Positions 5,642-26,101 of a DNA stretch of 64,000 bases are shown one piece after another (within the stretch, counting starts at the first letter, position 1; every line of letters starts with the position of its first letter). Below the pieces are notes generated by a model, which made no database searches, was not told the origin of the DNA, and saw nothing but the letters and a program-made list of their open reading frames with translations. This DNA is from Asticcacaulis endophyticus (lineage in GTDB: Bacteria; Pseudomonadota; Alphaproteobacteria; Caulobacterales; Caulobacteraceae): contig NZ_BMZB01000001.1 of NCBI RefSeq assembly GCF_014652575.1, positions 1,819,470-1,883,469 on the forward strand, in the 5' to 3' direction. Both the position numbers and the translations under genes were made by a program.

Positions 5642-6478
5642 TTATAGGTCACCGATGATATTGCGCGTCAGTTCGGCCAGACGATAAGAGGCCGGATCGA
5701 GGCCCTCGGCGGTCTCAACGACGCATGAAATGTTCGGCAGTTCAGGCAAGCGTGTATCTTCAAGCACTGGCAGGTCATGCAGGAACAGATGGGTACGGCA
5801 ACTGACGGCTAGCCCCGCCTGTACAGCCGCCTTAAGGGTCGACAGGTTTGGTGTTTCGACCGCAATCCGATATGGGATATCGGCATTTTCAAGGGTGCGG
5901 ATAGCCGCTTCGCGGAACCGGCAGGGTTGCTCAATGACAGCCAGAGGCACCACGGCCTTGCGGGTCAGTTCTACACTGCCATACCATTTCATGGCGGCGG
6001 ATTTGACGGCGTTGGCATCCTGACTACCGGCAAAGCCTACGATAATATCAAGTTGTCTGCGTTCCAGCAGGGTTTGTAGCTCCGCAGTACCGGCAACCCT
6101 GGCAAAAATCTGGGCATCGGGATGCAGACTGGCGAATGTGCCTAAAAGTCCGGTCAGCAAGGTGTCAGCAAAGTCCTGGACCATGCCGATCCGAACCGGT
6201 CCGGAAAATTCATGATTGGAAACGGCTGCGACCGCTTCATCGTGCAGGGACAAGACGCGCCTTGCATAGTCGAGCAGCACATCGCCTGCGGGCGTTAGCG
6301 TCAGGCGGCGGCCGTCCCGCACAAACAGCGATTGCTGAACCAGTTCTTCCAGTCGCTTGACCTGAAGGCTGAGGGCCGACTGGGTGACAAATACCTGTTC
6401 TGACGCATTGAGCATAGAGCCGGTGTCAACAATGGCGACGAAGCTTCTGATGAGGTTGGTGGGCAGGTTGACAGGCAT
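5642..6478 (-). CDS. LysR-family transcriptional regulator
   Basis: The 278-residue protein has an N-terminal winged helix-turn-helix (about 8-65) with ASEQVFVTQSALSLQVKRLE and LTPAGDVLLDYARR, and a substrate-binding co-inducer domain from about 90. It is divergent to ssuC with 271 bp between, which holds a perfect palindrome at 6567-6589. LysR proteins commonly control the divergent operon and themselves, so it is the best local candidate for regulator of the sulfur island (CysB/Cbl/SsuR-like role, inferred). It is slightly short for the family (about 300). Confidence 0.9.
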   Translation of the reverse strand: MPVNLPTNLIRSFVAIVDTGSMLNASEQVFVTQSALSLQVKRLEELVQQSLFVRDGRRLTLTPAGDVLLDYARRVLSLHDEAVAAVSNHEFSGPVRIGMVQDFADTLLTGLLGTFASLHPDAQIFARVAGTAELQTLLERRQLDIIVGFAGSQDANAVKSAAMKWYGSVELTRKAVVPLAVIEQPCRFREAAIRTLENADIPYRIAVETPNLSTLKAAVQAGLAVSCRTHLFLHDLPVLEDTRLPELPNISCVVETAEGLDPASYRLAELTRNIIGDL

Positions 6479-6566
6479 GATCTCACTTTAATTTTCGAGA
6501 ATGACCGGTGCTTTATAGGATGCTGCCCGCATTTTTCACAAACCCGTTTGGCTGAGGTCAGGCTTT

Positions 6567-6589
6567 AATAAAACTAATTTTGTTTTATT
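6567..6589. promoter_or_regulatory. Perfect palindrome, candidate LysR operator
   Basis: AATAAAAC and GTTTTATT form perfect 8-bp arms around 7 bases. It lies 89 bp from the lysR start and 160 bp from the ssuC start, in the divergent promoter region. The GTTTTAT half recurs in five other intergenic sites of the island. AT-rich dyads of this size suit LysR dimers; binding is inferred. Confidence 0.6.
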
Positions 6590-6749
6590 TTTAATGATGA
6601 TAATCCGCCCTGGTCTCCCAGGGTTTCTTATTTTTAAGCGGGTCAAGTCGTCAGATGAGAAATGCTTATAGCTGTCCCGAATAATTCTCAATTGAAAGAG
6701 TAGGAAATTGATACCTTAATGCCGGTCCGTATTCGCGTGATCAGGTGCC

Positions 6750-15110: not shown

Positions 15111-15167
15111 TAGCCGGAATTAAAATATCTCATTAGCTGAAGTCGGTATGTTGGGGTAACGCTAAAT

Positions 15168-15188
15168 CCTAGTCAATTTGTTTTAAAT
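15168..15188 (+). promoter_or_regulatory. Sulfur-island motif site (CCTA-N8-GTTTTA), aldolase promoter
   Basis: CCTAG, 7 bases, then GTTTTAAAT, ending 9 bp before the ATG of the aldolase gene. It shares base content and exact spacing with sites near 16044, 18730, 18880 and 22650. It is so close to the start that a bound protein or a transcription start here would control the gene directly. Confidence 0.5.
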
Positions 15189-15197
15189 GGGTGTTAC

Positions 15198-15992
15198 ATG
15201 GTCGCCGCGCTCAAAGACGTTTCCCAACAGCCTGCGCATTTTACCGAAGCCGAATGGAAGGTCCGGGTTGATTTGGCGGCGTTTTACCGCCTGTCAGCGC
15301 TTTATGGGTGGGACGATCTGATCTTCACCCATATTTCGGCGCGGGTGCCGGGGCCGGATCACCATTTTCTGATCAACCCGTTTGGACTAACCTTCGATGA
15401 GATTACCGCCTCATCACTGGTCAAGGTCGATTTGGACGGTAATCTGATTGGCGAGCATGAATACGGCATCAACTATGCCGGCTATGTCATCCATTCGGCT
15501 ATCCATGCCGCCCGCGAGGATGCCCATTTCGTGGCTCACTTCCACTCTCCGGATGGTATGGCCGTATCCGCCCATAAAGAGGGGCTTTTACCGCTCAATC
15601 AGCGGGCATTAGCGATTATTCCGCGCCTTTCCTACCACGATTATGAAGGTGTAGCGCTTAATTTGGATGAGCGGGAACGCCTAGTAGCCGATATTGGTGA
15701 AACCAAACTCATGCTGCTGCGCAATCATGGCACTCTGGCGGTGGGGGCCCATGTTGGCGAGGCGTGGGGCAATATCTATCAGCTTGAGGCCGCCTGCACC
15801 GCGCAGGTGCGCACGCTGTCCATCGGTCGTGAGGGGGTGCTAATTGCCCCCGAAGAGGCCCAGGAGGAGGTGCGCCGCCAGATGAGTGCGCGAAACCCGA
15901 TCGCTCAGGAAGGCAAGCGCTCGTTCCATGATCTGGTGTGGGAAGCTTCACTTCGAAAGGCTCATCGTTTCTCACCTGGTTTTGATCAGTAA
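15198..15992 (+). CDS. Class II aldolase/adducin-family protein
   Basis: The 264-residue protein matches class II aldolases: FYRLSALYGWDDLIFTHISARV near the start, the metal-binding pair in HFVAHFHSPDGMAVSAH and a third His in LLRNHGTLAVGAHVGEAW. These enzymes split C-C bonds of hydroxy-substituted acids or phosphates with a divalent metal. Substrate cannot be read from the sequence. A motif shared with the sulfur genes lies just upstream, so it may process the carbon skeleton left after desulfurisation. Confidence 0.85.
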   Translation: MVAALKDVSQQPAHFTEAEWKVRVDLAAFYRLSALYGWDDLIFTHISARVPGPDHHFLINPFGLTFDEITASSLVKVDLDGNLIGEHEYGINYAGYVIHSAIHAAREDAHFVAHFHSPDGMAVSAHKEGLLPLNQRALAIIPRLSYHDYEGVALNLDERERLVADIGETKLMLLRNHGTLAVGAHVGEAWGNIYQLEAACTAQVRTLSIGREGVLIAPEEAQEEVRRQMSARNPIAQEGKRSFHDLVWEASLRKAHRFSPGFDQ

Positions 15993-16030
15993 GGGGCTGC
16001 ATCTTTCGCCTTGCTCACCTTGATATTTAT

Positions 16031-16059
16031 CGTCAAAATAAAACTATAAATATAGGAAT
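16031..16059 (-). promoter_or_regulatory. Sulfur-island motif site (minus orientation)
   Basis: On the minus strand CCTAT, 7 bases, then GTTTTATTTTG, with flanking CGTCAA/TTGACG arms spanning 16031-16064. It lies between the aldolase gene and the TTG start at 16067, and the Shine-Dalgarno-like AGGAA of that gene is inside the site. Five sites in the island share the spacing. Confidence 0.45.
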
Positions 16060-16066
16060 TGACGAT

Positions 16067-17548
16067 TTGTCTGAATATGTGCCAGGTACGCTTAAACCCC
16101 AGACCATTGCGATTGTCGGTGCCGGTATAAGCGGGACCCTTTTGGCGCTGAGGCTGAGTGCGCGCAATCAAACGAATGGATCAAACTTTGCACCGCTTCT
16201 GATCGAAGGGGAGCCCAGGGTGGGGCCAGGCCTTGCCTATGGCGCGGCCGATGAGGTGCATCTGCTCAATGTGCCGGTGTCACGTATGGAGGTAGGCTTT
16301 ACGCCGTCGTTTGAAACATGGCTGGGCGCGCATGTTCTGGATACGGCAGCGGCAACCGCAGAAAGCGGTGGTGACCTCAGCGCCGCATTCGTTGGGCGTA
16401 AACTGTTCGGTCAATATGTCTACGAGTGCGCTCAGCGCGCTTTGCGTCGCGCCGAAGTGAATCGGGTGAGGGGGCGCGTCACCCAGATAGACAAGACGGT
16501 AAACGCGCAACATGAAGTAAGCTATAGTCTGAGCATGTCCGATGGACGGAGCCTGCGGGCTGACAAGGTGGTGTTGGCGACTGGCAATGACGCGCCAAAA
16601 GCGCCGGCTCTGTTTGAGGATAGTGACGGGCGCAGCTTGCAGGATTCGGCTCTGTTTATTCCGGACCCTTGGCAGCGGGGGGCTTTCAACGATCTCGATG
16701 TCGATGAGCCCGTTTTGCTGATCGGTACCGGTCTTACCGCAATTGACATCGCCCTGAAACTTCACATGCGTGGCCACAAGGGCCAGATTTGGGCCGTGTC
16801 ACGTCGCGGCCTATTGCCGAAGGCTCACAAACAGGGTGGGGATTGGCCGGGATTTTTGGAGGCCGCCACTCAGACGTCGCCGATTAGGCTTTTGCAGCGC
16901 TTCCGTCAGGAGGCACGGCGTGCCGGTGAGGCCGGTATACCTTGGCAACGGGTTATGGATGCGGCTCGACCCTATGTGGCGCAAATCTGGTCGGGATGGT
17001 CCACGCGACAAAGGCGCCAGTTCCTGCGTCATGTCAGGCCGCATTGGGATATCCACCGTCACCGGTTGGCGCCGCGGATACAGTCCGTACTTACATCGCT
17101 CCATGATCGGGGCCAGTTCGTCGCGTTGGCGGGCCGTCTTGTCAGTTATAGCCGTAAGGGTGAGCACTTGACGGTAAAGGTGCGTCCCCGTCATAAGGCG
17201 GCGTGTATGGAGATTAAGGTCGCGCGGGTCGTAAACTGCACCGGCCCTCGTAGCGACTACGGTCAATCGGGTGATCCGCTGTTTGTGAATTTGCGTGAGC
17301 AGGGCCTCATTCAGCCCGACCTGCTGGGGTTGGGGATCGAAACGTCAGACGCGCGCGTCATTGATGGACGTGGGCAGGTCTCTGACAGTTTGTTCGCACT
17401 TGGCCCCCTGACACGACCGTCGTGGTGGGAAATCACGGCCGTGCCCGAAATTTCGGTTCAAGTGAGCCGGTTGATCGATTTTCTGCATGACCGGGCAGCG
17501 AGTTCCAGCCCGGTCGAGGACTTTTTTGACCTCGGCGCAGGGATTTAA
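16067..17548 (+). CDS. FAD/NAD(P)-binding oxidoreductase (NAD_binding_9 type)
   Basis: The 493-residue protein opens with TIAIVGAGISGTLLALRLSA and has GPGLAYGAADEVHLLNVP, the fingerprint of the large FAD/NAD(P)-binding family PF13454, plus a second nucleotide loop PVLLIGTGLTAIDIALKL (about 215). The start is a TTG with AGGAA 8 bases upstream; no in-frame ATG lies close to the conserved N-terminus. Members are flavin monooxygenase-like proteins of unclear substrate. It is convergent, with 5 bp spacing, to the unknown gene at 17554. Link to sulfur use is by position only. Confidence 0.8.
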   Translation: MSEYVPGTLKPQTIAIVGAGISGTLLALRLSARNQTNGSNFAPLLIEGEPRVGPGLAYGAADEVHLLNVPVSRMEVGFTPSFETWLGAHVLDTAAATAESGGDLSAAFVGRKLFGQYVYECAQRALRRAEVNRVRGRVTQIDKTVNAQHEVSYSLSMSDGRSLRADKVVLATGNDAPKAPALFEDSDGRSLQDSALFIPDPWQRGAFNDLDVDEPVLLIGTGLTAIDIALKLHMRGHKGQIWAVSRRGLLPKAHKQGGDWPGFLEAATQTSPIRLLQRFRQEARRAGEAGIPWQRVMDAARPYVAQIWSGWSTRQRRQFLRHVRPHWDIHRHRLAPRIQSVLTSLHDRGQFVALAGRLVSYSRKGEHLTVKVRPRHKAACMEIKVARVVNCTGPRSDYGQSGDPLFVNLREQGLIQPDLLGLGIETSDARVIDGRGQVSDSLFALGPLTRPSWWEITAVPEISVQVSRLIDFLHDRAASSSPVEDFFDLGAGI

Positions 17549-17553
17549 CGGGC

Positions 17554-18060
17554 TTAAGCCACTGCCTCTGTGGCGAAGCCGGAGCCGTGCGGGGTTGAGC
17601 GGATAAAGGTGGCTACATTTACGGGGGCGCTCAAGACGCCGATGGCGAACCCCTCATCGGCTATGTGTTGCAGGTTGGTAATCCGCTCGTCGCTGAGATT
17701 ATGTTCACCACGACCGGTCACGTCGAAATAGGCCTCGATAAGTTCGGGGTGATCACTCAGCAGGTGTCGGTGTACAGTCGTGACCTGAAGCTTTGCACTT
17801 TGATCGGCAGCTATATCGACAATAGCCACGCGGTCGTGACCTTCGGCAATGGCACTAAGAGCCGTGACGGCATCGACCTGCCGGATCAAATTGCGGATAT
17901 CGTGAGTTTGGCTTTGAGCGCGCAATTGCGGGTTAGGTTCACTGCTCAATGATTTGGCCTTGAAGCCCAGGGCGTGAAAGCGCGCGTCAAAGGCGCTTAC
18001 ATCATCATGGGTAAAATAAATCGTGTCAGAGGCGACAAGCGGAATAGTGTTGGTCAGCAT
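17554..18060 (-). CDS. Conserved-looking protein of unknown function
   Basis: The 168-residue protein has no signal peptide or membrane segment and I do not recognise its family. It reads as an alternating alpha/beta protein, with an N-terminal DTIYFTHDDVSAFDARFHALG that faintly resembles a glyoxalase-like beta-alpha-beta unit, but the metal ligands of that fold are not evident. It follows the nitroreductase gene after 17 bp, so both are probably one transcript under the motif at 18721-18742. Normal codon use supports a real gene. Confidence 0.65.
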   Translation of the reverse strand: MLTNTIPLVASDTIYFTHDDVSAFDARFHALGFKAKSLSSEPNPQLRAQSQTHDIRNLIRQVDAVTALSAIAEGHDRVAIVDIAADQSAKLQVTTVHRHLLSDHPELIEAYFDVTGRGEHNLSDERITNLQHIADEGFAIGVLSAPVNVATFIRSTPHGSGFATEAVA

Positions 18061-18077
18061 GGATTATCCCTTAGTCA

Positions 18078-18701
18078 TTATTCTTGGGGCATATCGGCGG
18101 TGAAGCGGCCCTCGAACACAAAGCTTTCAAGCGGGCGGCGTTCAGACGGGGTTTCCTGATCATGGAACACTTCGTCCAGATGCTCCAATGCAGCCCGCCT
18201 TCCGATCGCAACGGCGGTTTCGACCTGGTAGTTGTCGGGCAACCCTAAAACTTCCGGGGCTCTTTTGCGGTCAAATCCACCGATGGCGCGGGTGTTGTAA
18301 CCCAAAATATGGGCCTGATGGGCCAGATTGCTCCAGGCAGCACCTGTATCGAAGGAGTGGCTGCCGATCGGAAAGGTTTCACCCTGAAAAATGAAATCCT
18401 TGCGCGATACGATAAAGATCAGGGCCGCGGCCCGGTGCGCCCACTGACGGTTCTTACTGTTTAGAAGGCCAAGCAACCGCTCCCAATCCGCGGTGTCACG
18501 GTGAGCATAGATAAACCGCCACGGCTGGGCGTTAAACGCCGACGGGGCCCAGCGCGCGGCTTCGAAGCACGCCCACAGATCAGTCTCAGGGATAGTTTCC
18601 TGTGTCAGCGACCGTGCCGACCAGCGATTAAGAAACAGGGGAGCAACAGCGTGGTCGCTGCGGCGAGGGGCCGTTAAAACATCGGAAGTGTGGATGGACA
18701 T
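18078..18701 (-). CDS. Nitroreductase-family flavoprotein
   Basis: The 207-residue protein has the FMN-binding signature RWSARSLTQETIP (about 26-38) and AARWAPSAFNAQPWRFIYA (about 49-67), typical of nitroreductases that use FMN and NAD(P)H. Such proteins can reduce nitro compounds, quinones or free flavin. Two FMNH2-dependent monooxygenases (10255 and 21164) are encoded in this island without an SsuE-type reductase, so flavin supply is a reasonable inferred role. It is divergent to the receptor gene at 18964 and both promoters carry the shared motif. Confidence 0.88.
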   Translation of the reverse strand: MSIHTSDVLTAPRRSDHAVAPLFLNRWSARSLTQETIPETDLWACFEAARWAPSAFNAQPWRFIYAHRDTADWERLLGLLNSKNRQWAHRAAALIFIVSRKDFIFQGETFPIGSHSFDTGAAWSNLAHQAHILGYNTRAIGGFDRKRAPEVLGLPDNYQVETAVAIGRRAALEHLDEVFHDQETPSERRPLESFVFEGRFTADMPQE

Positions 18702-18720
18702 GCGAACACTCAGTGGTTTT

Positions 18721-18742
18721 TATATAAAACACATAGAGTAGG
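18721..18742 (-). promoter_or_regulatory. Sulfur-island motif site, nitroreductase promoter
   Basis: On the minus strand CCTAC, 7 bases, then GTTTTATATA, ending 19 bp before the nitroreductase start. Same arrangement as the site facing the divergent receptor gene at 18876-18897. TATAAA-like bases inside the 3' half could also serve as a -10 element. Confidence 0.5.
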
Positions 18743-18875
18743 CTTTTGGGTTTGGGAAATGATTTTGGCTAAAGCGCGCATTAGCCATTCTCAACACTCC
18801 GAAAAGCTCATCCACGCCTATGAGTGTTCATTATAATCAGCGGTTGAGAACTCATTTGTCAGCGCAAACATAATT

Positions 18876-18897
18876 CCTATTAAATTCGTTTTATATT
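18876..18897 (+). promoter_or_regulatory. Sulfur-island motif site, receptor promoter
   Basis: CCTATTAA, 4 bases, then GTTTTATATT. It is identical outside the 4 spacer bases to the site at 22642-22663, which also precedes a receptor gene. It lies 66 bp before the ATG at 18964. Confidence 0.55.
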
Positions 18898-18963
18898 GGC
18901 GTCGGGGCAATGGGGAACTTTATGGCATTCCTGTCGGCGCGAACGAATTGACAGGAGATCCTA

Positions 18964-21138
18964 ATGGTTAAGGTTACGGCACGGGCTTTAAGGGGCCGCT
19001 CATCACGCCTTCGGGCATTGCTTATGGTCACCGCCGCTATTGTCTGGCCCTCGGTCGCCAGTGCTGATGATGCACCCGATCCGGCGGCGTCGGCGGAAGA
19101 GGCCACAACCGTCGTCGTGACCGCCCAGCGGCGTACCACGGCCTTGCAGAAAACGCCGATTGCCATCTCGGCGTTCGGGACTGAGACGCTTGGTGACCGC
19201 AATATTAACAATGTTCGCGATCTGGCCGGGCAGGTCCCTAACCTCTATGTTGCCCGCGTGTCGATCAGCCATACCACTCAGACCTTTTCGCTGCGTGGTA
19301 TCGGAGAGGCCGATCCGATTCAGGAGCCGGTGCTGGCCGTATATGTTGATGATGTCTATAGCCCGCGCCAGATCGGCTCCGGCATAGAGTTTGTAGATAT
19401 TGAGCGGGTCGAAGTTCTGCGTGGGCCGCAGGGCACGCTTTATGGTCGTAACTCGTCTGCGGGGGCGTTGCGGATTATCACCCGCGATCCGGATCTGGAA
19501 CTGCGCTATGTGTCCGAGCTGGGGTATGGACGCTTTAACGACATTCAGGCGCGGGGATTGCTGAGCGGGGGGATCAGTAAAAACTGGTCGGGCAGCATCG
19601 CCTATGTTCACCGCAGCCGTGACGGCGTGACCGAAAACCCGACCCTGGGCCACGATGTCAACCGTATCGACCTGAACAGTGCGCGGGGGAAGTTACGCTA
19701 TAACAGTGGCGGCAAACTGGATGCCCTGCTGACGCTCAACCTGACCCGCGACCGCAGCGATACGAGGTCTTATATTCCGGCCGATCAGCCGGGTGGCTTT
19801 GACCGCCGCAAATCCTATTCCGAAGTCGAGCCGTTGCAGCATCTGGACGCAGCGTCTGCGTCGTTGCGTCTAAACTATGCGCTGTCTCCAAACTTAAGTC
19901 TGAAATCGATTACAGCTTTTGGTGGATTTAACCTCAATCCGGTCGATTATGAAAATGACGGCGAAGCCGCGCTCATTCAGAAAAACCTTATCCATTACAA
20001 TGACCAATATGCCACTCAGGAAGTCCAGCTTAACGGCGATTATGGGCGACTGACTTTTACTAGCGGCCTGTTCTACCTGCATGAACGCTTTTTTGTGAAG
20101 CGGGATGGTTTCAGCCGCACCGGCTCATCGCCGACCGCGCCAGTTAGCCGGTTGCGCGCCCATAACATCACTACAACCGATGCCTATGCGGTCTTTGGTG
20201 AGGGCACGTTTGCGGCCAGCGATGTCTGGAGCTTTACGCTGGGCCTGCGCGGCACATCAGAGACAAAGAGTTTCTGGTTCGACAACAAGGTGCTCGATGC
20301 CAATCGCAACCCAATAGCTCAATCGATCAAGGGCGAAGCGGATAAGACATGGTCGGCCTGGACGCCTAAGGCGTCAGTTCAGGCTCAGTGGAGCGACAAC
20401 CTGCTGCAATATCTGTCCTATTCTCGCGGCTTTAAGTCCGGCGGGTTTGATAACCGGGCGACAAGACTGGATCTGGCGACCCTCCCGTTCAACCCGGAAA
20501 AGGTCGCGACCTATGAAACCGGCCTGAAAGGCGGCTTCTTCGGCGGGCGGCTGCGCAGCAATGTCGCAGTTTTCTACAATGATTACGAGGATCTGCAGGT
20601 GTCTTTCTACGATCCGGCCTATGTCGGTAGTCGCCGCGGCAACGCCGGTAAAGCCCATAGCTGGGGCGTTGAGCTTGAAAACAGCTTTCGGGTCACTGAC
20701 CGCCTCGGCATCAACCTATCGGGCGGATATCTTAAGGCCGTTTATGATGAGTACAAAGGCGCCGGCGGTAACGGCGTCAATGCCGATGGCAATCCGCTGA
20801 TCAACTCACCGCAGCAGTCTTACGGTGCGGGCCTTACCTACGACCTGCCGCTGGGGACTGCGGGTGATGTCAAATTTGCGCTCAATGGCCAGTATCAGTC
20901 GAATTTCTACGCCTCAGCACTCAAACGCCCGCAGGATCGTGTGCCGGGGCAGGGTTTCGTCAACAGTTCGATCGTCTGGCAAACCCCCAACCCTCATGTC
21001 CGGATTGCACTAGATGGCCGCAACCTGACCAACAGCGATAAGCCGGTGACGGTCAGCTATGTGCCGTCAACGGGCGTGCTTCATTACAATTTCGCCGATC
21101 CGGCCACCGTGCTGGTGTCGTTCCGGTATTCACTTTAA
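18964..21138 (+). CDS. TonB-dependent receptor (third receptor of the sulfur island)
   Basis: The 724-residue receptor has a signal peptide ending near ASA (about residue 34), TTVVVTAQRR (about 50-59), a plug (LRGIGEADPIQEPVLAVYVDDVY, IERVEVLRGPQGTLYGRNSSAGALRI) and a barrel ending NFADPATVLVSFRYSL. The plug is of the common proteobacterial class with a vectorial VYVDDVY loop, unlike the two module receptors. AGGAG lies 6 bases before the ATG. The LLM monooxygenase gene follows after 25 bp and is probably co-transcribed, which suggests a substrate for that enzyme. Confidence 0.92.
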   Translation: MVKVTARALRGRSSRLRALLMVTAAIVWPSVASADDAPDPAASAEEATTVVVTAQRRTTALQKTPIAISAFGTETLGDRNINNVRDLAGQVPNLYVARVSISHTTQTFSLRGIGEADPIQEPVLAVYVDDVYSPRQIGSGIEFVDIERVEVLRGPQGTLYGRNSSAGALRIITRDPDLELRYVSELGYGRFNDIQARGLLSGGISKNWSGSIAYVHRSRDGVTENPTLGHDVNRIDLNSARGKLRYNSGGKLDALLTLNLTRDRSDTRSYIPADQPGGFDRRKSYSEVEPLQHLDAASASLRLNYALSPNLSLKSITAFGGFNLNPVDYENDGEAALIQKNLIHYNDQYATQEVQLNGDYGRLTFTSGLFYLHERFFVKRDGFSRTGSSPTAPVSRLRAHNITTTDAYAVFGEGTFAASDVWSFTLGLRGTSETKSFWFDNKVLDANRNPIAQSIKGEADKTWSAWTPKASVQAQWSDNLLQYLSYSRGFKSGGFDNRATRLDLATLPFNPEKVATYETGLKGGFFGGRLRSNVAVFYNDYEDLQVSFYDPAYVGSRRGNAGKAHSWGVELENSFRVTDRLGINLSGGYLKAVYDEYKGAGGNGVNADGNPLINSPQQSYGAGLTYDLPLGTAGDVKFALNGQYQSNFYASALKRPQDRVPGQGFVNSSIVWQTPNPHVRIALDGRNLTNSDKPVTVSYVPSTGVLHYNFADPATVLVSFRYSL

Positions 21139-21163
21139 TCCCATTTGAGACGGAGTTCAGCCT

Positions 21164-22507
21164 ATGACGAAAGTGCGTCAAATTAAACTCGGCGCCATGC
21201 TGGAAGGTGTCGGCACCGATCACGGTCGCTGGCAGCATCCCGACCTGCCCGGCGATGCCAGTATCAATATCGACTGGTATATCGAAAATGCCAAACTGGC
21301 CGAAGCCGCGAAATTCGACTTCGTGTTCATCGTCGACAGCCCCTACATCACTAAAGATTCCGCCCCGCATTTTCTGAACCGGCTGGAGCCGTTGACCCTG
21401 TTGTCGGCCGTGGCGGTGACGACGAAGACAATCGGTCTGGCCGGGACGCTGACGACGTCATATTGGGAGCCCTATAATGTTGCGCGTCAGTTTGGATCGC
21501 TGGATCTGATCAGTCGCGGGCGGGCCGGGTGGAATGTGGTCACCACGGGTCTTGAGGGGGCGGCCAGAAACTACAGTCGCGATGAGCACTTTGAGCATGG
21601 CGTGCGTTATGCCCGTGCCGAGGAATTTGTCAGCGTCGTCAAAGGCCTGTGGGACAGTTATGAGGACGATGCCTTCCTGCGCGATAAGGTTTCCGGTCAA
21701 TTTCTGGACGCCGGCAAACAACATGCGCTCAATCACAACGGTACATTCTTTTCAGTCGCGGGGCCTTTAGCCCTAAGCCGCTCTAAGCAGGGGCAGCCGG
21801 TCATTTTCCAGGCGGGCGACAGTTCTGAGGGGCGTGATCTGGGTGCTAAAATCGCCGACGCGACCTTTACAATCTCGGAATCGCTTGAAAGCTCTAAAGG
21901 CTATTACCGTGATCTGAAATCGCGGGCGGCGGCTCTGGGCCGTGACCCTGATCAGATTGTTGTCCTGCCGGGTATAGATCCTATCGTGGCGGACACGGAT
22001 GAGGCGGCCCAAGAAATACTCAAAGCCCGGCAAGGTGCCTTTGATCTGGATAAGGCGCTGGTTCAGGTTGGGCGGGCGTTCAACTATCATGACTTCAAAA
22101 AGTACCCGATTGACGGCCCATTCCCCGATACCTCAAACCTGACACTCAACAGCTACAAAGGCCATGCCGAGCGTATTATAAAGGTGGCCAAAGACGAAAA
22201 CCTGACCCTGCGTCAGGTAGCTGAACGGTTTGGTGTCTGGAAGGCGACCTTTGTCGGCTCACCCGAAACCGTGGCGGACAGTCTAGAGCTCTGGTTCCGT
22301 GAGCGGGCTGCCGACGGCTTTATCCTGCGCGTGTCTGAGCCAGATACGTTCAGGATTTTCCGTGAAAAAGTGGTGCCGATCCTTCAGGCGCGCGGTCTGT
22401 TCAGAAATGAGTATGAACACGATACTTTGCGCGGCCATTTGGGGTTGAGCATTCCAGAAAACCGCTATGCGGATCAAACCCATATCTCTGACGTCGCCGC
22501 GCAATAG
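21164..22507 (+). CDS. LLM-class flavin monooxygenase, NtaA/SnaA/DszA family
   Basis: The 447-residue protein has the group-specific text LGAMLEGVGTDHGRWQHPD, LISRGRAGWNVVTTGLEGAARNYSRD split over two segments, and PVIFQAGDSSEGRDLGAKIAD. It belongs to the NtaA/SnaA/DszA branch of FMNH2-dependent monooxygenases, which open sulfones, aminocarboxylates and related compounds, and is longer than SsuD. The enzyme needs reduced flavin from another protein. Co-transcription with the receptor at 18964 and the shared promoter motif tie it to uptake of an unknown sulfur compound. A hairpin follows its stop. Confidence 0.88.
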   Translation: MTKVRQIKLGAMLEGVGTDHGRWQHPDLPGDASINIDWYIENAKLAEAAKFDFVFIVDSPYITKDSAPHFLNRLEPLTLLSAVAVTTKTIGLAGTLTTSYWEPYNVARQFGSLDLISRGRAGWNVVTTGLEGAARNYSRDEHFEHGVRYARAEEFVSVVKGLWDSYEDDAFLRDKVSGQFLDAGKQHALNHNGTFFSVAGPLALSRSKQGQPVIFQAGDSSEGRDLGAKIADATFTISESLESSKGYYRDLKSRAAALGRDPDQIVVLPGIDPIVADTDEAAQEILKARQGAFDLDKALVQVGRAFNYHDFKKYPIDGPFPDTSNLTLNSYKGHAERIIKVAKDENLTLRQVAERFGVWKATFVGSPETVADSLELWFRERAADGFILRVSEPDTFRIFREKVVPILQARGLFRNEYEHDTLRGHLGLSIPENRYADQTHISDVAAQ

Positions 22508-22529
22508 AGGGCGAATTGTCTGAGGTCAG

Positions 22530-22566
22530 GGCGTCACCGGATTATCCCCCCGGTGACGCCTTTTTT
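22530..22566 (+). terminator. Rho-independent terminator after the LLM gene
   Basis: GGCGTCACCGG pairs perfectly with CCGGTGACGCC across a 9-base loop and is followed by six T. It ends the receptor-monooxygenase operon. Confidence 0.93.
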
Positions 22567-22641
22567 GTGACTGCAACCTTGGAATGCATTTGAAATCCTC
22601 AACAGCGACCGGGCTGAACTTGTTGGTTCTCAGGAGAAAAC

Positions 22642-22668
22642 CCTATTAATCAGGTTTTATATTATACT
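22642..22668 (+). promoter_or_regulatory. Sulfur-island motif site with -10-like element
   Basis: CCTATTAA, 4 bases, GTTTTATATT, then TATACT at 22663-22668, which fits a -10 element 23 bases before the ATG at 22691. No good -35 is present, so the motif may be an activator site covering the -35 position. Confidence 0.55.
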
Positions 22669-22690
22669 GAGTTTGCTATGGGGTCTAAAG

Positions 22691-25147
22691 ATGTATCGTG
22701 CACGTAATCTATTTAATCGCCGCGCCGCGCTGATTTGCGGTGTCGGGCTTGTGGCGCTGAGTTCTTCGCCGGGTTTTGCCGATGATGTGCCCGCCGCCGA
22801 CGCGGCTGAACCGACAACTGTCGTTGTAACAGGCAGCCGCGGAAAACCCCGCACCATATCTGAGAGCCCGTCACCGATTGATGTCATTGATGCTGCGCAG
22901 TTGAGCCAGACCGGTAAGGTCACCCTGAAAGAAGCATTGGCGGTGCTGCTACCCTCATTGAACTACGGCACGGTCAATGGCTTTGCGCACAATAACGTGG
23001 TGCGGCCCGTGAGTATGCGCGGCTTAGGCGGCGGCTACACATTGGTGCTGGTCAATGGCAAGCGCCGCCATCCGACGACCCTGTTGATGAACTCAAACGT
23101 CGATACATCCGGTGCCACGCCGGTTGATCTGGATCAGATTCCCGTAGGTGCTATTGAGCGCATTGAAGTGTTACGTGATGGGGCGGCGGCGCAATATGGC
23201 TCCGATGCTATTGCCGGTGTGATCAATATCATCCTCAAGTCTGGTAAGGGCGGGAGCGTTTCTCTAGGTGCCGGGCAAACCTATAGCGGAGACGGCGAAA
23301 ATGTGCGTGCCGCCGCCGACTGGGGCACGGTTCTGGACAACGGGCTTAAGCTGCATCTGGCGCTGGAGACCAAATATCAGGGCCGGACCGACCGTAATGA
23401 TCCGGCAACAGGCAGTTTCTACTTCCCTATTAACGGTCAGCCCGATCCGCGTGAGGCTACGATCCCGAAGCGCGGCGATTACAACGGCAACCCACAGGTA
23501 CGTGCGGCGACTTTTGCGGCCAATTTTGAGTTGCCCGTGCGCGACGGGCTTGAACTCTATAGCTTTGTGACCGCCGGTGCCAAAAGCGGCAATGCCTTTC
23601 AGACTAAGCGCCGCCCCAATGCCAATACCAATATCCCTGAAATTCACCCCGACGGCTTTATTCCGGTTTATCGCCTGAAAGAGCGCGATTATGAAGTGGT
23701 TGCGGGGGGGCGGGGCCTGATCGGGGACTGGACCTGGGATGCCTCCACGGCTGTGGCGCAAAACCTGACGCGCTCCAGTGCGGATACTTTGAATCCGTCT
23801 CTGGGCCTGGCAAGTCCCACAAAATTCAAACTCTATGACCTGGTGGGACACACATGGACCACTAACCTTGACGTGCGGCGTGGCTATGAGATCGGTCTGG
23901 CGGAACCCCTGAGCGTTGCCGCCGGTGTCGAATACCGCGAAGAACTCTATAAAGTGAAATCGGGTGATGCGGCGTCCTATGTCAATGGCGGCTATGTTTT
24001 CCCGTCGGGGCCGCTGGCTGGCCGTCCGGCCCTGATCGGTGTGCAGGGCGTCAATACGGTTGATGCGTCCGATGCAGGGCAGGCGGATCGTTCCAATCTG
24101 GCGGCCTATGTTGATCTTGGCCTGTCGCCAACCAAAGCGTGGTATGTAGGCTTTGCCTTGCGCTCAGAGCACTATGATGATGATGCGGGCGACACCGTCA
24201 GCGGTAAGCTCACCACCCGCTATGCCTTCACTAACGCCCTGGCGGTACGGGCTACGGTCTCGACCGGATTCCGCGCACCGTCTTTGAGCCAGCAACTCTA
24301 TGGTCAGCGTCGCTATTCGACTCAGACCATTGCCGGCGTGCTCTATCAATTCCCATCGAAGGTGGTGCGGGTGGATTCCCCGCTGGCGCAGGCACTGGGC
24401 GCGCAGCCCCTGACGCCGGAGAAATCGCGCAACTATAGTCTTGGGTTTACCTTTACCCCCAGCCGCAGGTTCCGCACGACGATCGATGCCTACCGCATCG
24501 ATATCGACGACCGCATTGCCCTGACCAGCACCCTGAGCGGACCCGGTGTCAACGCGCTTTTGGCGGCGGCAGGCCTGCCGACCGATATCTATGTGCAGTA
24601 CTTTACCAACGCTATCGACACCAAAACCGAAGGGCTTGATATCGTCAGTGAATATACGACAGGGCTTGGCCGGTTTGGTAACCTTAAGCTTTCCGGCGCC
24701 TTCAACTGGAATCAGACCGAGATCACGAACATCAAGGCCAATCCGCCGGAACTGGCCTCATTGGGTGCCAATCTGGTGCTGTTTGACCGTGTCCAGCAGG
24801 GTACGCTAACGGTTGGTTATCCCGAAACCAAGGCCGTTCTGGGGGCGAACTGGCGTAGCGATCGCTGGACGGTCGATGTGCGCGCGACCCGTTATGATGA
24901 CGTCACTCAAGTCGCCACGGTCGCCACTGATGACCGCACCTTTGGGGCCAAATGGATCACCGATTTATCGGTCAGCTACGCTTTTACGGATAAGCTGGGG
25001 CTGACGGTCGGCGCGGACAATCTGTTTGATGAATATCCCGATGCGGTCGGGATCGTGTCCGCTAACGGTGGCGGCAAATACGGCGCCTTCTCACCCTTTG
25101 GCCAGACCGGCGGCTATTATTACACGCGTCTCGATTACCGGTTTTAA
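22691..25147 (+). CDS. TonB-dependent receptor (module copy 2)
   Basis: The 818-residue receptor starts at the ATG that gives a proper signal peptide (NRRAALICGVGLVAL, cleavage near FADD); a TTG 18 bases earlier is in frame but adds nothing. TTVVVTGSRG follows, then the plug with SPSPIDVID, LVNGKRRH and IEVLRDGAAAQYGSDAIAGV, and a barrel ending GGYYYTRLDYRF. It is a paralog of the receptor at 11570 and, like it, is followed at once by an SsuA-like lipoprotein gene (9 bp). The pair is therefore a duplicated uptake module. Confidence 0.92.
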   Translation: MYRARNLFNRRAALICGVGLVALSSSPGFADDVPAADAAEPTTVVVTGSRGKPRTISESPSPIDVIDAAQLSQTGKVTLKEALAVLLPSLNYGTVNGFAHNNVVRPVSMRGLGGGYTLVLVNGKRRHPTTLLMNSNVDTSGATPVDLDQIPVGAIERIEVLRDGAAAQYGSDAIAGVINIILKSGKGGSVSLGAGQTYSGDGENVRAAADWGTVLDNGLKLHLALETKYQGRTDRNDPATGSFYFPINGQPDPREATIPKRGDYNGNPQVRAATFAANFELPVRDGLELYSFVTAGAKSGNAFQTKRRPNANTNIPEIHPDGFIPVYRLKERDYEVVAGGRGLIGDWTWDASTAVAQNLTRSSADTLNPSLGLASPTKFKLYDLVGHTWTTNLDVRRGYEIGLAEPLSVAAGVEYREELYKVKSGDAASYVNGGYVFPSGPLAGRPALIGVQGVNTVDASDAGQADRSNLAAYVDLGLSPTKAWYVGFALRSEHYDDDAGDTVSGKLTTRYAFTNALAVRATVSTGFRAPSLSQQLYGQRRYSTQTIAGVLYQFPSKVVRVDSPLAQALGAQPLTPEKSRNYSLGFTFTPSRRFRTTIDAYRIDIDDRIALTSTLSGPGVNALLAAAGLPTDIYVQYFTNAIDTKTEGLDIVSEYTTGLGRFGNLKLSGAFNWNQTEITNIKANPPELASLGANLVLFDRVQQGTLTVGYPETKAVLGANWRSDRWTVDVRATRYDDVTQVATVATDDRTFGAKWITDLSVSYAFTDKLGLTVGADNLFDEYPDAVGIVSANGGGKYGAFSPFGQTGGYYYTRLDYRF

Positions 25148-25156
25148 GAGGTATAG

Positions 25157-26101
25157 ATGGAACGGCGATCATTTCTGGCTCTCAGCGCGCTGACTGTGGG
25201 ACTTGCCGCTTGCGGTCAGTCACCAAAGGGGCAAACCAAGCTCATTCTGGGCGACCAACAGCGTGGCCTGCGTATCCCGGTCGAGGCCGCCAACGCTCTG
25301 GAGGGGGCGGATTATCAGGTCGAATGGGCCAATTTCAGTAACCCAACCTCTCTGTTTGAGGCTTCAAGTTCGGGTGCCGTCGATACCCTAATGGCGATCG
25401 ATAATCTGGTCCTTTTGGGGGCCATTGTCGGGCGGCCCTATAAAATCGTCGCCCACTGGAAATCGGCCTCTGATGGTATTGGCATCGTGGTTCCCGCCAA
25501 CTCCCCCATCAAGACCGTGGCTGATCTTAAAGGCCGAAAGGTCATAGTCTCAACCGCGCCCGGCGGCACAGCCGATGGCGTCTTTTACGCCGCGATACGC
25601 GAAGCGGGACTTAAAGACGATGACGTAAAACCGGGCTATATGCTGCAACCTGATGCTCTGGCCGCGTTTGAGCGGGGCAATATCGACGCTTGGGCGACCA
25701 ATGATCCTAATCTGGCGCGGGTCGAAGCCACCGGTGCTCGGCTTTTGCGCAATGGTGTCGGCATCAATAAGAGCGTCAGTTTTCTTGCGGCGTCGGATCA
25801 GGCTTTGAATGATCCCGCGCGCCGGGTAGCGCTTAAGGATGTTTTGCACAGGATCGCCACTGCCTTTGCGTGGAGTAACGATAATCTTGAGGCCTACGCA
25901 AAAATCTACTCCGAAGAGACCCAGCTTTCGCCCGGTCTGGCCTTGACGACACTTAGCCGGCGCGGGCGGCCGGAGCTTAAGCCGATTACGCCGCAAACCA
26001 TTGCCGATGCGCAAGTTGTTGCCGATCACTATGCGGCCCGCGGTATTTTCCCCCGTAAAGCTGATGTCACCGGCTTTTTTGATACGACCCTGTTTACCTG
26101 A
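25157..26101 (+). CDS. SsuA-like substrate-binding lipoprotein (module copy 2)
   Basis: The 314-residue protein has a short lipoprotein signal with lipobox LAAC (Cys19) and then QTKLILGDQQRGLRIPVEAA, like the copy at 14139. It keeps VADLKGRKVIVSTAPGG and FERGNIDAWATND, but the ligand-site loop reads DTLMAIDNLVLLGAIVG instead of DTAIAGDIPAIFAAAAG, so ligand choice has probably changed. It is transcribed with the receptor at 22691. No permease is encoded beside it. Confidence 0.87.
   Translation: MERRSFLALSALTVGLAACGQSPKGQTKLILGDQQRGLRIPVEAANALEGADYQVEWANFSNPTSLFEASSSGAVDTLMAIDNLVLLGAIVGRPYKIVAHWKSASDGIGIVVPANSPIKTVADLKGRKVIVSTAPGGTADGVFYAAIREAGLKDDDVKPGYMLQPDALAAFERGNIDAWATNDPNLARVEATGARLLRNGVGINKSVSFLAASDQALNDPARRVALKDVLHRIATAFAWSNDNLEAYAKIYSEETQLSPGLALTTLSRRGRPELKPITPQTIADAQVVADHYAARGIFPRKADVTGFFDTTLFT

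Follow-up and report, generated by a model that had tools for sequence, protein, structure and literature searches.

A 64,000-nucleotide stretch of the Asticcacaulis endophyticus genome (hereafter the window) carries five intergenic copies of the motif CCTA-N8-GTTTTA, which raises the question of what these copies do and which protein might bind them. The window is an organosulfur region. It encodes acyl-coenzyme A (CoA)-dehydrogenase-like and luciferase-like flavin proteins, an ATP-binding cassette (ABC) permease, a rhodanese, TonB receptors, a peroxiredoxin and a LysR-family regulator, along with a borderline cysteine-dioxygenase-like protein. An original prediction had tied receptor, monooxygenase, nitroreductase, aldolase and oxidoreductase genes of this island into one regulon, with the LysR protein as the binder. 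Judging from the sequence evidence below, the sites are probably operators of a genus-level organosulfur regulon, and the protein or proteins that bind them would be Rrf2-family regulators that repress the genes when sulfur suffices.

There are exactly five copies of the motif in the window, all with the ten fixed bases and the exact spacing that had been claimed, and the copies at 18876 and 22642 do differ at four spacer bases only. Dinucleotide shuffling (100 shuffles, largest count 1) gives an expectation of 0.06 copies; the earlier rough estimate was about 0.1. Nine exact copies occur in the complete genome (13 contigs, 3.95 Mb), five of them within 7.5 kb. The binomial probability for that stretch is 3e-12, or about 1e-7 after a crude scan correction. 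Outside the window, one copy (C4:146383, locus L011) is located upstream of a TonB receptor, referred to here as C4-type, and another (C1:1127206, locus L002) is located between the divergent genes for a DszB-like protein and an Rrf2-family regulator, Rrf2A. Seven of the nine exact copies therefore belong to the organosulfur system. The other two score below zero when their flanks are included and look like chance occurrences: C1:113742 is inside a reading frame, and C3:192074 is just behind a frame resembling a cytochrome-oxidase assembly protein.

The bare ten-base pattern is not generally enriched, because its exact and one-mismatch counts are below those of a reversed control. In this genome there are 9 exact copies versus 11 for the control, and 127 versus 310 when one mismatch is allowed. 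In the 25 Asticcacaulis genomes that form our conservation set (G000 is this genome), the exact counts summed over genomes are 52 versus 202. Among those 52 copies, 18 belong to the system and 34 are elsewhere, many within reading frames. Flanking nucleotides separate the two groups: with a position weight matrix (PWM) that includes them, the scored exact copies of the system reach 29.8-40.7 bits, whereas the 29 non-system copies that were scored (of the 34) reach at most 18.2 bits. Agreement between sites is confined to a core of 26 base pairs (bp), in which pairs among seven sites are identical at 15-23 of 26 positions, while the flanks beyond this core are unrelated (15-38% identity). Information is concentrated in CCTA and R-TTTTA with A/T-rich flanks, and the ten-base pattern needs one correction in that the G of GTTTTA is an A in several relatives. 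What is non-random about the motif is its clustering, context and flanks, rather than its bare count. The concern that such a motif might be equally common inside genes or near unrelated genes is thus partly borne out for the bare ten bases across the genus, though not for the refined 26-bp element, for which all 34 matches described below are in place.

Two profile models were used to predict sites. The training set of the first, R1, comprised 14 sites from other species, 10 at receptors and 4 at Rrf2A, with none from this genome or from any island. When this genome was scanned (150 of 782 first-look candidates scored), R1 gave five matches at an expectation value (E) <=10 among the candidates scored. 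All are in the system and three are in the window: the Rrf2A site, the receptor site, and the window sites at 18876 (E 0.007), 15168 (E 0.07) and 16039 (E 5.0, the weakest match). E-values from models this short are approximate, and scoring covered just a portion of the first-look candidates. The second model, R2, was built from 18 sites, including seven from this genome. There are 34 R2 matches at E<=1 among the candidates scored in the 25 genus genomes; they occur in 14 genomes, and every one is upstream of a system gene class (12 in front of a C4-type receptor, 5 in the gap between Rrf2A and the adjacent gene, 9 ahead of DszB-like genes at unlinked loci and 8 within islands). The nine matches at unlinked loci are in no training set, and all nine precede a DszB-like gene (four of these proteins were aligned and five were recognised by their N-terminal sequence). 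In the 199 genomes of the family, searched at E<=0.1, matches are found in 14, all of them Asticcacaulis, and there are none in the 174 other family genomes, under stricter filters that could lose weak sites. A distribution wider than the genus is rejected on these counts. Because the R2 matches are all at system genes, with none in those 174 genomes, we describe the regulon as genus-level. The original prediction had proposed just such a scan of this genome and related Caulobacteraceae, and matches of the refined model do concentrate upstream of the expected genes.

The element itself, its conservation, the genes behind it and its limit to the genus in the searched genomes are computational results of this analysis. 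The C4-type TonB receptor is present in 23 of the 25 genus genomes; an exact or one-mismatch site lies upstream in 14 of the 23, and there is none in the other 9. Twelve of the 14 sites are CCTA-type and two (G002, G014) are CCGA-type in the opposite orientation. Exact sites before these receptor orthologs recur with changed spacers. Genome G017 has a syntenic island, with 83% identity for the aldolase, 74% for receptor 2 and 83% for LysR. In its divergent nitroreductase/receptor-2 region, the equivalents of the sites at 18725-18742 and 18876 are both kept, each with one G to A change among the ten fixed bases. In G016, the site at 16039-16056 recurs at the same place and in the same reversed orientation before the orthologous flavin adenine dinucleotide (FAD)-oxidoreductase gene (52% identical), which is followed by Rrf2A (81%) and then a DszB-like gene. 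An exact site is found upstream of Rrf2A in five genomes (this genome, G003, G008, G012 and G013). In G013, three of the eight spacer bases of this site are changed, and there is no adjacent DszB-like gene, the divergent neighbour being a symporter gene.

Thus, relatives keep the sites at C4 TonB receptor, DszB-like, nitroreductase, receptor-2 and FAD-oxidoreductase genes. The exceptions are the aldolase site, which is absent in G017, and receptor 3, which has no clear ortholog in the G017 stretch. On the strength of cross-species conservation and of a model trained elsewhere, the proposal of a single regulon holds for the receptor, nitroreductase, aldolase and FAD-oxidoreductase genes. The monooxygenase gene (21164-22507) lacks a separate site and follows receptor 2, which has one, after a gap of 25 bp. 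The original prediction also needs the correction that the site at 16056 points away from the gene behind it. The nitroreductase site at 18742 also precedes a shortened DszB relative.

The best candidate for the binder is Rrf2A and/or its paralog Rrf2B, because a site precedes Rrf2A in five genomes, the G016 cluster joins the motif to this gene, its protein family includes CymR-like sulfur repressors, and the paralog is encoded beside the island. Membership of Rrf2A in the Rrf2 family is indicated by PF02082 (113.5 bits, cut-off 30, E 1e-32) and TIGR00738 (98.1 bits, cut-off 73.3), and the nearest solved chains include CymR and IscR. Rrf2A is present in 17 of the 25 genus genomes, including all 14 that are positive for R2, and none of the eight genomes without it is positive (14/17 versus 0/8, simple Fisher test p 1.5e-4). 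In the 14 of 17 Rrf2A proteins that were aligned, the recognition helix contains PLHFLEG in 12 rows (KAPLHFLEG in 9, RAPLHFLEG in G011 and G017, QSPLHFLEG in G004), and G002 and G014 have KAPQHFLEG. Rrf2B shares PLHF(L/V)E in its recognition helix. The element can be written as TAwwwC-N11-GwwwTA, a 23-bp imperfect inverted repeat with CTA after the C. The NsrR operator is likewise 23 bp, according to PMC9338935. By this analogy the length would fit an Rrf2 dimer, and it proves nothing.

The leucine at position 38 of Rrf2A is replaced by glutamine (L38Q; L040, L042, A5 position 38) in G014 and G002, the same genomes that have a CCGA site upstream of the receptor. Co-evolution of regulator and site is possible, with the limits that the CCGA site is inverted and closer to the gene compared with the other species, and that G002 and G014 may represent one event.

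Several observations weigh against this assignment. Three genomes with Rrf2A have no R2 match (G002, G004 and G014). On a DnaB tree, the co-occurrence of Rrf2A and motif amounts to 2-3 independent contrasts and is not significant; on the starred branches there is one concordant, no discordant and one uninformative contrast. We infer the identity of the binder, and do not use the Fisher p-value as proof, because the tree leaves so few independent contrasts. There is no exact site in the 3.4-kb Rrf2A locus of eight site-bearing genomes (G001, G005, G010, G011, G015, G017, G019 and G023), and autoregulation of Rrf2A is therefore not general. Where a site does precede Rrf2A, the real target could be the other neighbour (DszB-like where present) in four of the five genomes and the divergent symporter gene in G013. 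Rrf2A is also far below the cut-offs of the CymR equivalog NF047409 (57.8 bits, cut-off 195), of IscR TIGR02010 (67.2 bits, cut-off 207.55) and of RirA NF008886 (52.6 bits, cut-off 193). The palindromy of the element is weak, with a correlation of 0.39 between the matrix and its own reverse complement at the best of 17 offsets. Finally, R1 missed two of the five window sites, 18725 and 22642, at E<=10 among the 150 of 782 first-look candidates scored.

Perhaps, then, the same regulon and motif are served by another transcription factor, such as a different LysR-type or other shared regulator. We give this a minor yet real chance, since few phylogenetic events stand behind the Rrf2 assignment, the palindromy of the element is weak, and the regulators compared with the motif for co-occurrence were the island LysR and Rrf2A. 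Against it are the sites upstream of Rrf2A, the motif-led cluster that includes Rrf2A in G016, and the position of Rrf2B next to the island together with its shared recognition helix.

A different possibility is that the element is not an operator at all, but rather a special promoter, such as part of a -10/-35 arrangement for an alternative sigma factor. The sites frequently continue into TATATT or AAATT, and a TTG-CAC sequence is present just upstream in 11 aligned TonB-receptor promoters (TTGCCAC in 10, TTGTCAC in 1). However, the element has a forward orientation at TonB-receptor sites of the CCTA type and a reversed one at the nine unlinked DszB-like genes and the FAD-oxidoreductase gene. 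This variable orientation counts against a promoter element, since promoters have direction, and the distance from site to start codon ranges from 12 to about 240 bp. We consider a promoter function improbable. A known RNA element is rejected as well, because Rfam gave no match at gathering scores in the window from 5000 to 30000.

Some 110 bp ahead of the C4 TonB receptor (L011 8283-8295, minus strand) there is another conserved palindrome, TTAG-N5-CTAA. It is located between the site and the receptor start in 11 of 11 aligned upstream regions, and it may be a second operator.

In gamma-proteobacteria, LysR-type regulators of the CysB/Cbl kind control ssu-type sulfonate genes in response to sulfur limitation. 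The LysR protein of the island (5642-6478), which had been put forward as the binder, is encoded within the island, has an ortholog in each of the two syntenic islands (G017 and G016), and has weak sites in its divergent promoter region. Unlike the CysB/Cbl case, this LysR is not distributed with the motif. It is present at E<=1e-40 in 3 of the 25 genus genomes, versus R2 matches in 14 of 25, so the regulator is not found wherever the motif is; in the 11 further motif-bearing genomes that lack it, the DszB-like and TonB-receptor sites are kept. This distribution does not support it as the common binder, so that it would be at best a local co-regulator, and we regard its being the binder as slightly less probable still than a promoter function.

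Chance similarity found by eye, or copying of one duplicated promoter, is a negligible prospect despite the post hoc discovery of the motif and its unremarkable bare counts, because chance is ruled out by the shuffles, by cross-species conservation and prediction and by the score gap to other exact copies, and duplication by the unrelated flanks beyond the core.

Returning to Rrf2 control of an organosulfur regulon, the mechanism might work as follows. A dimeric Rrf2-family regulator, Rrf2A and/or Rrf2B, would bind the imperfect inverted repeat close to promoters that serve TonB receptors, DszB-like genes of desulfinase type, and the nitroreductase, aldolase and FAD-oxidoreductase genes, as well as its own gene in some species. 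With sufficient sulfur, the regulator would repress these genes. On sulfur shortage it would release, and the outer-membrane receptors and enzymes that free sulfur from organic compounds would be made. Repression rather than activation, and the signal, are parts of the scheme that we infer. Four cysteines (C91, C100, C103 and C109) are invariant in 15 aligned rows, comprising 14 of the 17 Rrf2A proteins and paralog B, which suggests a metal, iron-sulfur (Fe-S) or thiol sensor. More tentatively, and with odds that we would put on the low side, the two paralogous four-cysteine proteins may sense sulfur by way of an Fe-S cluster or a thiol/persulfide state and exert direct control over the receptors and DszB-like desulfinases, independently of CysB-like proteins.

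The predicted targets include the DszB-like genes. In this genome, the protein at locus L002 has a weak score to an NCBIfam SsuA family (38.7 bits, cut-off 163.5) and no match in the PDB at E<=0.001. It is 34% identical to the protein at L196 (G008), which matches the solved desulfinase DszB (2de2, E 1.6e-12), and the Cys that is Ser in 2de3 aligns to the Cys of L196. The catalytic triad of DszB is Cys27, His60 and Arg70. In the DszB-like alignment, the Cys and Arg are present in 5 of 5 rows and the His in 3 of 5, and another His three residues further on is present in 5 of 5. The Cys is lacking in the G016 protein and in the 168-amino acid open reading frame of the window (17554-18060). This frame has no Pfam or NCBIfam match and is shortened in G017 too, and its relative in G016 is full-length. 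The DszB-like proteins are putative desulfinases.

Coordinates of the sites and genes discussed, with weak candidate sites; positions refer to the window unless a contig or locus is given
Feature	Position	Strand	Basis or remark
Operator-like site CCTAGTCAATTTGTTTTA	15168..15185	+	12 bp before ATG of class II aldolase-like gene; PWM 33.4 bits
Operator-like site CCTATATTTATAGTTTTA	16039..16056	-	Between aldolase and FAD-oxidoreductase genes; reversed relative to gene at 16067
Operator-like site CCTACTCTATGTGTTTTA	18725..18742	-	Before nitroreductase gene
Operator-like site CCTATTAAATTCGTTTTA	18876..18893	+	Before TonB receptor 2 and monooxygenase
Operator-like site CCTATTAATCAGGTTTTA	22642..22659	+	Before TonB receptor 3 and substrate-binding protein; PWM 29.8 bits
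Weak candidate, half-site ATTTCCTACTC-TTTCAAT	6683..6708	-	41 bp before ABC permease gene; 16.8 bits
Weak candidate TAAAAC-N7-GTTTTA	6566..6591	+	lysR/permease divergent region; 20.8 bits; only part recurs in G017 (7.9 bits)
LysR-family regulator	5642..6478	-	PF00126, PF03466
Class II aldolase/adducin-family protein	15198..15992	+	PF00596, NF005451
FAD/NAD(P)-binding oxidoreductase	16067..17548	+	PF13454
Shortened DszB-like relative, 168 amino acids	17554..18060	-	Alignment; no Cys at catalytic place
Nitroreductase-family protein	18078..18701	-	PF00881
TonB-dependent receptor 2	18964..21138	+	TIGR01783 and other TonB-receptor models, all below cut-offs
NtaA/DmoA-family flavin monooxygenase	21164..22507	+	TIGR03860, 499 bits (cut-off 279.7)
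TonB-dependent receptor 3	22673..25147	+	PF00593, PF07715
NMT1-like substrate-binding protein	25157..26101	+	PF09084
Rrf2A	G000:C1:1127372-1127794		Rrf2-family regulator
Rrf2B, Rrf2-family paralog	C1:1817315; L012 12244-12708	-	About 2 kb left of window; 50% identical to Rrf2A

The weak candidates in the lysR/permease region and upstream of the monooxygenase-Rrf2B pair are left out of all regulon claims. Reversed-PWM controls reach 16.5 bits in the window and 17.3 in L010, level with the candidate at 6683..6708; its half-site is found again at the corresponding position in G017. Rrf2B overlaps a luciferase-like monooxygenase gene by four bases (pair L012 12244-14048), and about 160 bp upstream of the pair there is a palindromic TTTCCTAC-N7-GTCGGATTT site of 15.6 bits (control there 14.0). 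Directly after Rrf2A, both here and in G013, there is a gene that resembles L-serine dehydratase as judged by reading (L010 9818-11212). The window from 33460 to 63251 holds other gene sets, named from their translations, such as one for an oligopeptide-type ABC transporter accompanied by oxidases and an aminotransferase, and also a gene resembling those of multicopper oxidases. This part has no PWM match above 9.0 bits.

Among the closest known systems is the regulon that CymR governs in Bacillus subtilis and Staphylococcus aureus, whose regulator is likewise of the Rrf2 family; CymR chains 2y75 and 3t8r are among the solved structures nearest to Rrf2A. CymR functions as a complex with CysK. 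CymR is a repressor of cysteine and sulfur genes, including sulfonate genes, with sulfur-acquisition targets, as described in PMC3828012 and PMC5480029. The genes behind the sites are of sulfur type by sequence, and their control by Rrf2A would extend the likeness. Rrf2A differs from CymR in falling far short of the equivalog cut-off, in its four invariant cysteines, where CymR of B. subtilis carries no Fe-S cluster (PMC9338935), and in having TonB receptors and DszB-like genes as its presumed targets. A sequence for the CymR box of B. subtilis was not found in the available portions of PMC2940859, PMC5480029, PMC9338935, PMC3519770 and PMC3828012, and the likeness therefore covers family and target type.

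In Rhodococcus qingshengii IGTS8, peg394 is a candidate CymR/Rrf2 global sulfur regulator, and the proteome includes DszB and nitrilotriacetate-monooxygenase proteins (PMC8557817). This is similarly an Rrf2 regulator proposed for organosulfur use, but in an actinobacterium, by proteomic association and with no operator given in the available text of that article. Closer in descent is IscR of Caulobacter crescentus, which is of the same protein family in the same bacterial family. Its type II motif has 28 letters, is weakly palindromic and begins with RAWDTCC (PMC11475020), which resembles the left half here, AwTTCC. However, the right half of the motif as given there (GG...) differs, and Rrf2A misses the IscR cut-off. 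Another Rrf2 gene in this genome (C4:216858, 37% identical to Rrf2A) would be the likelier IscR. In the open-licence literature, as far as the available texts extend, we found no description of such a regulon for Caulobacteraceae, and the main text of PMC5343134 does not mention Rrf2, sulfur or cysteine.

For the scavenging of organosulfur compounds in Asticcacaulis, the outcome is a defined operator sequence together with a candidate regulator and a list of genes. Certain TonB receptors and DszB-like proteins, whose annotation is difficult by other means, are also flagged as likely genes for the uptake and desulfination of these compounds.

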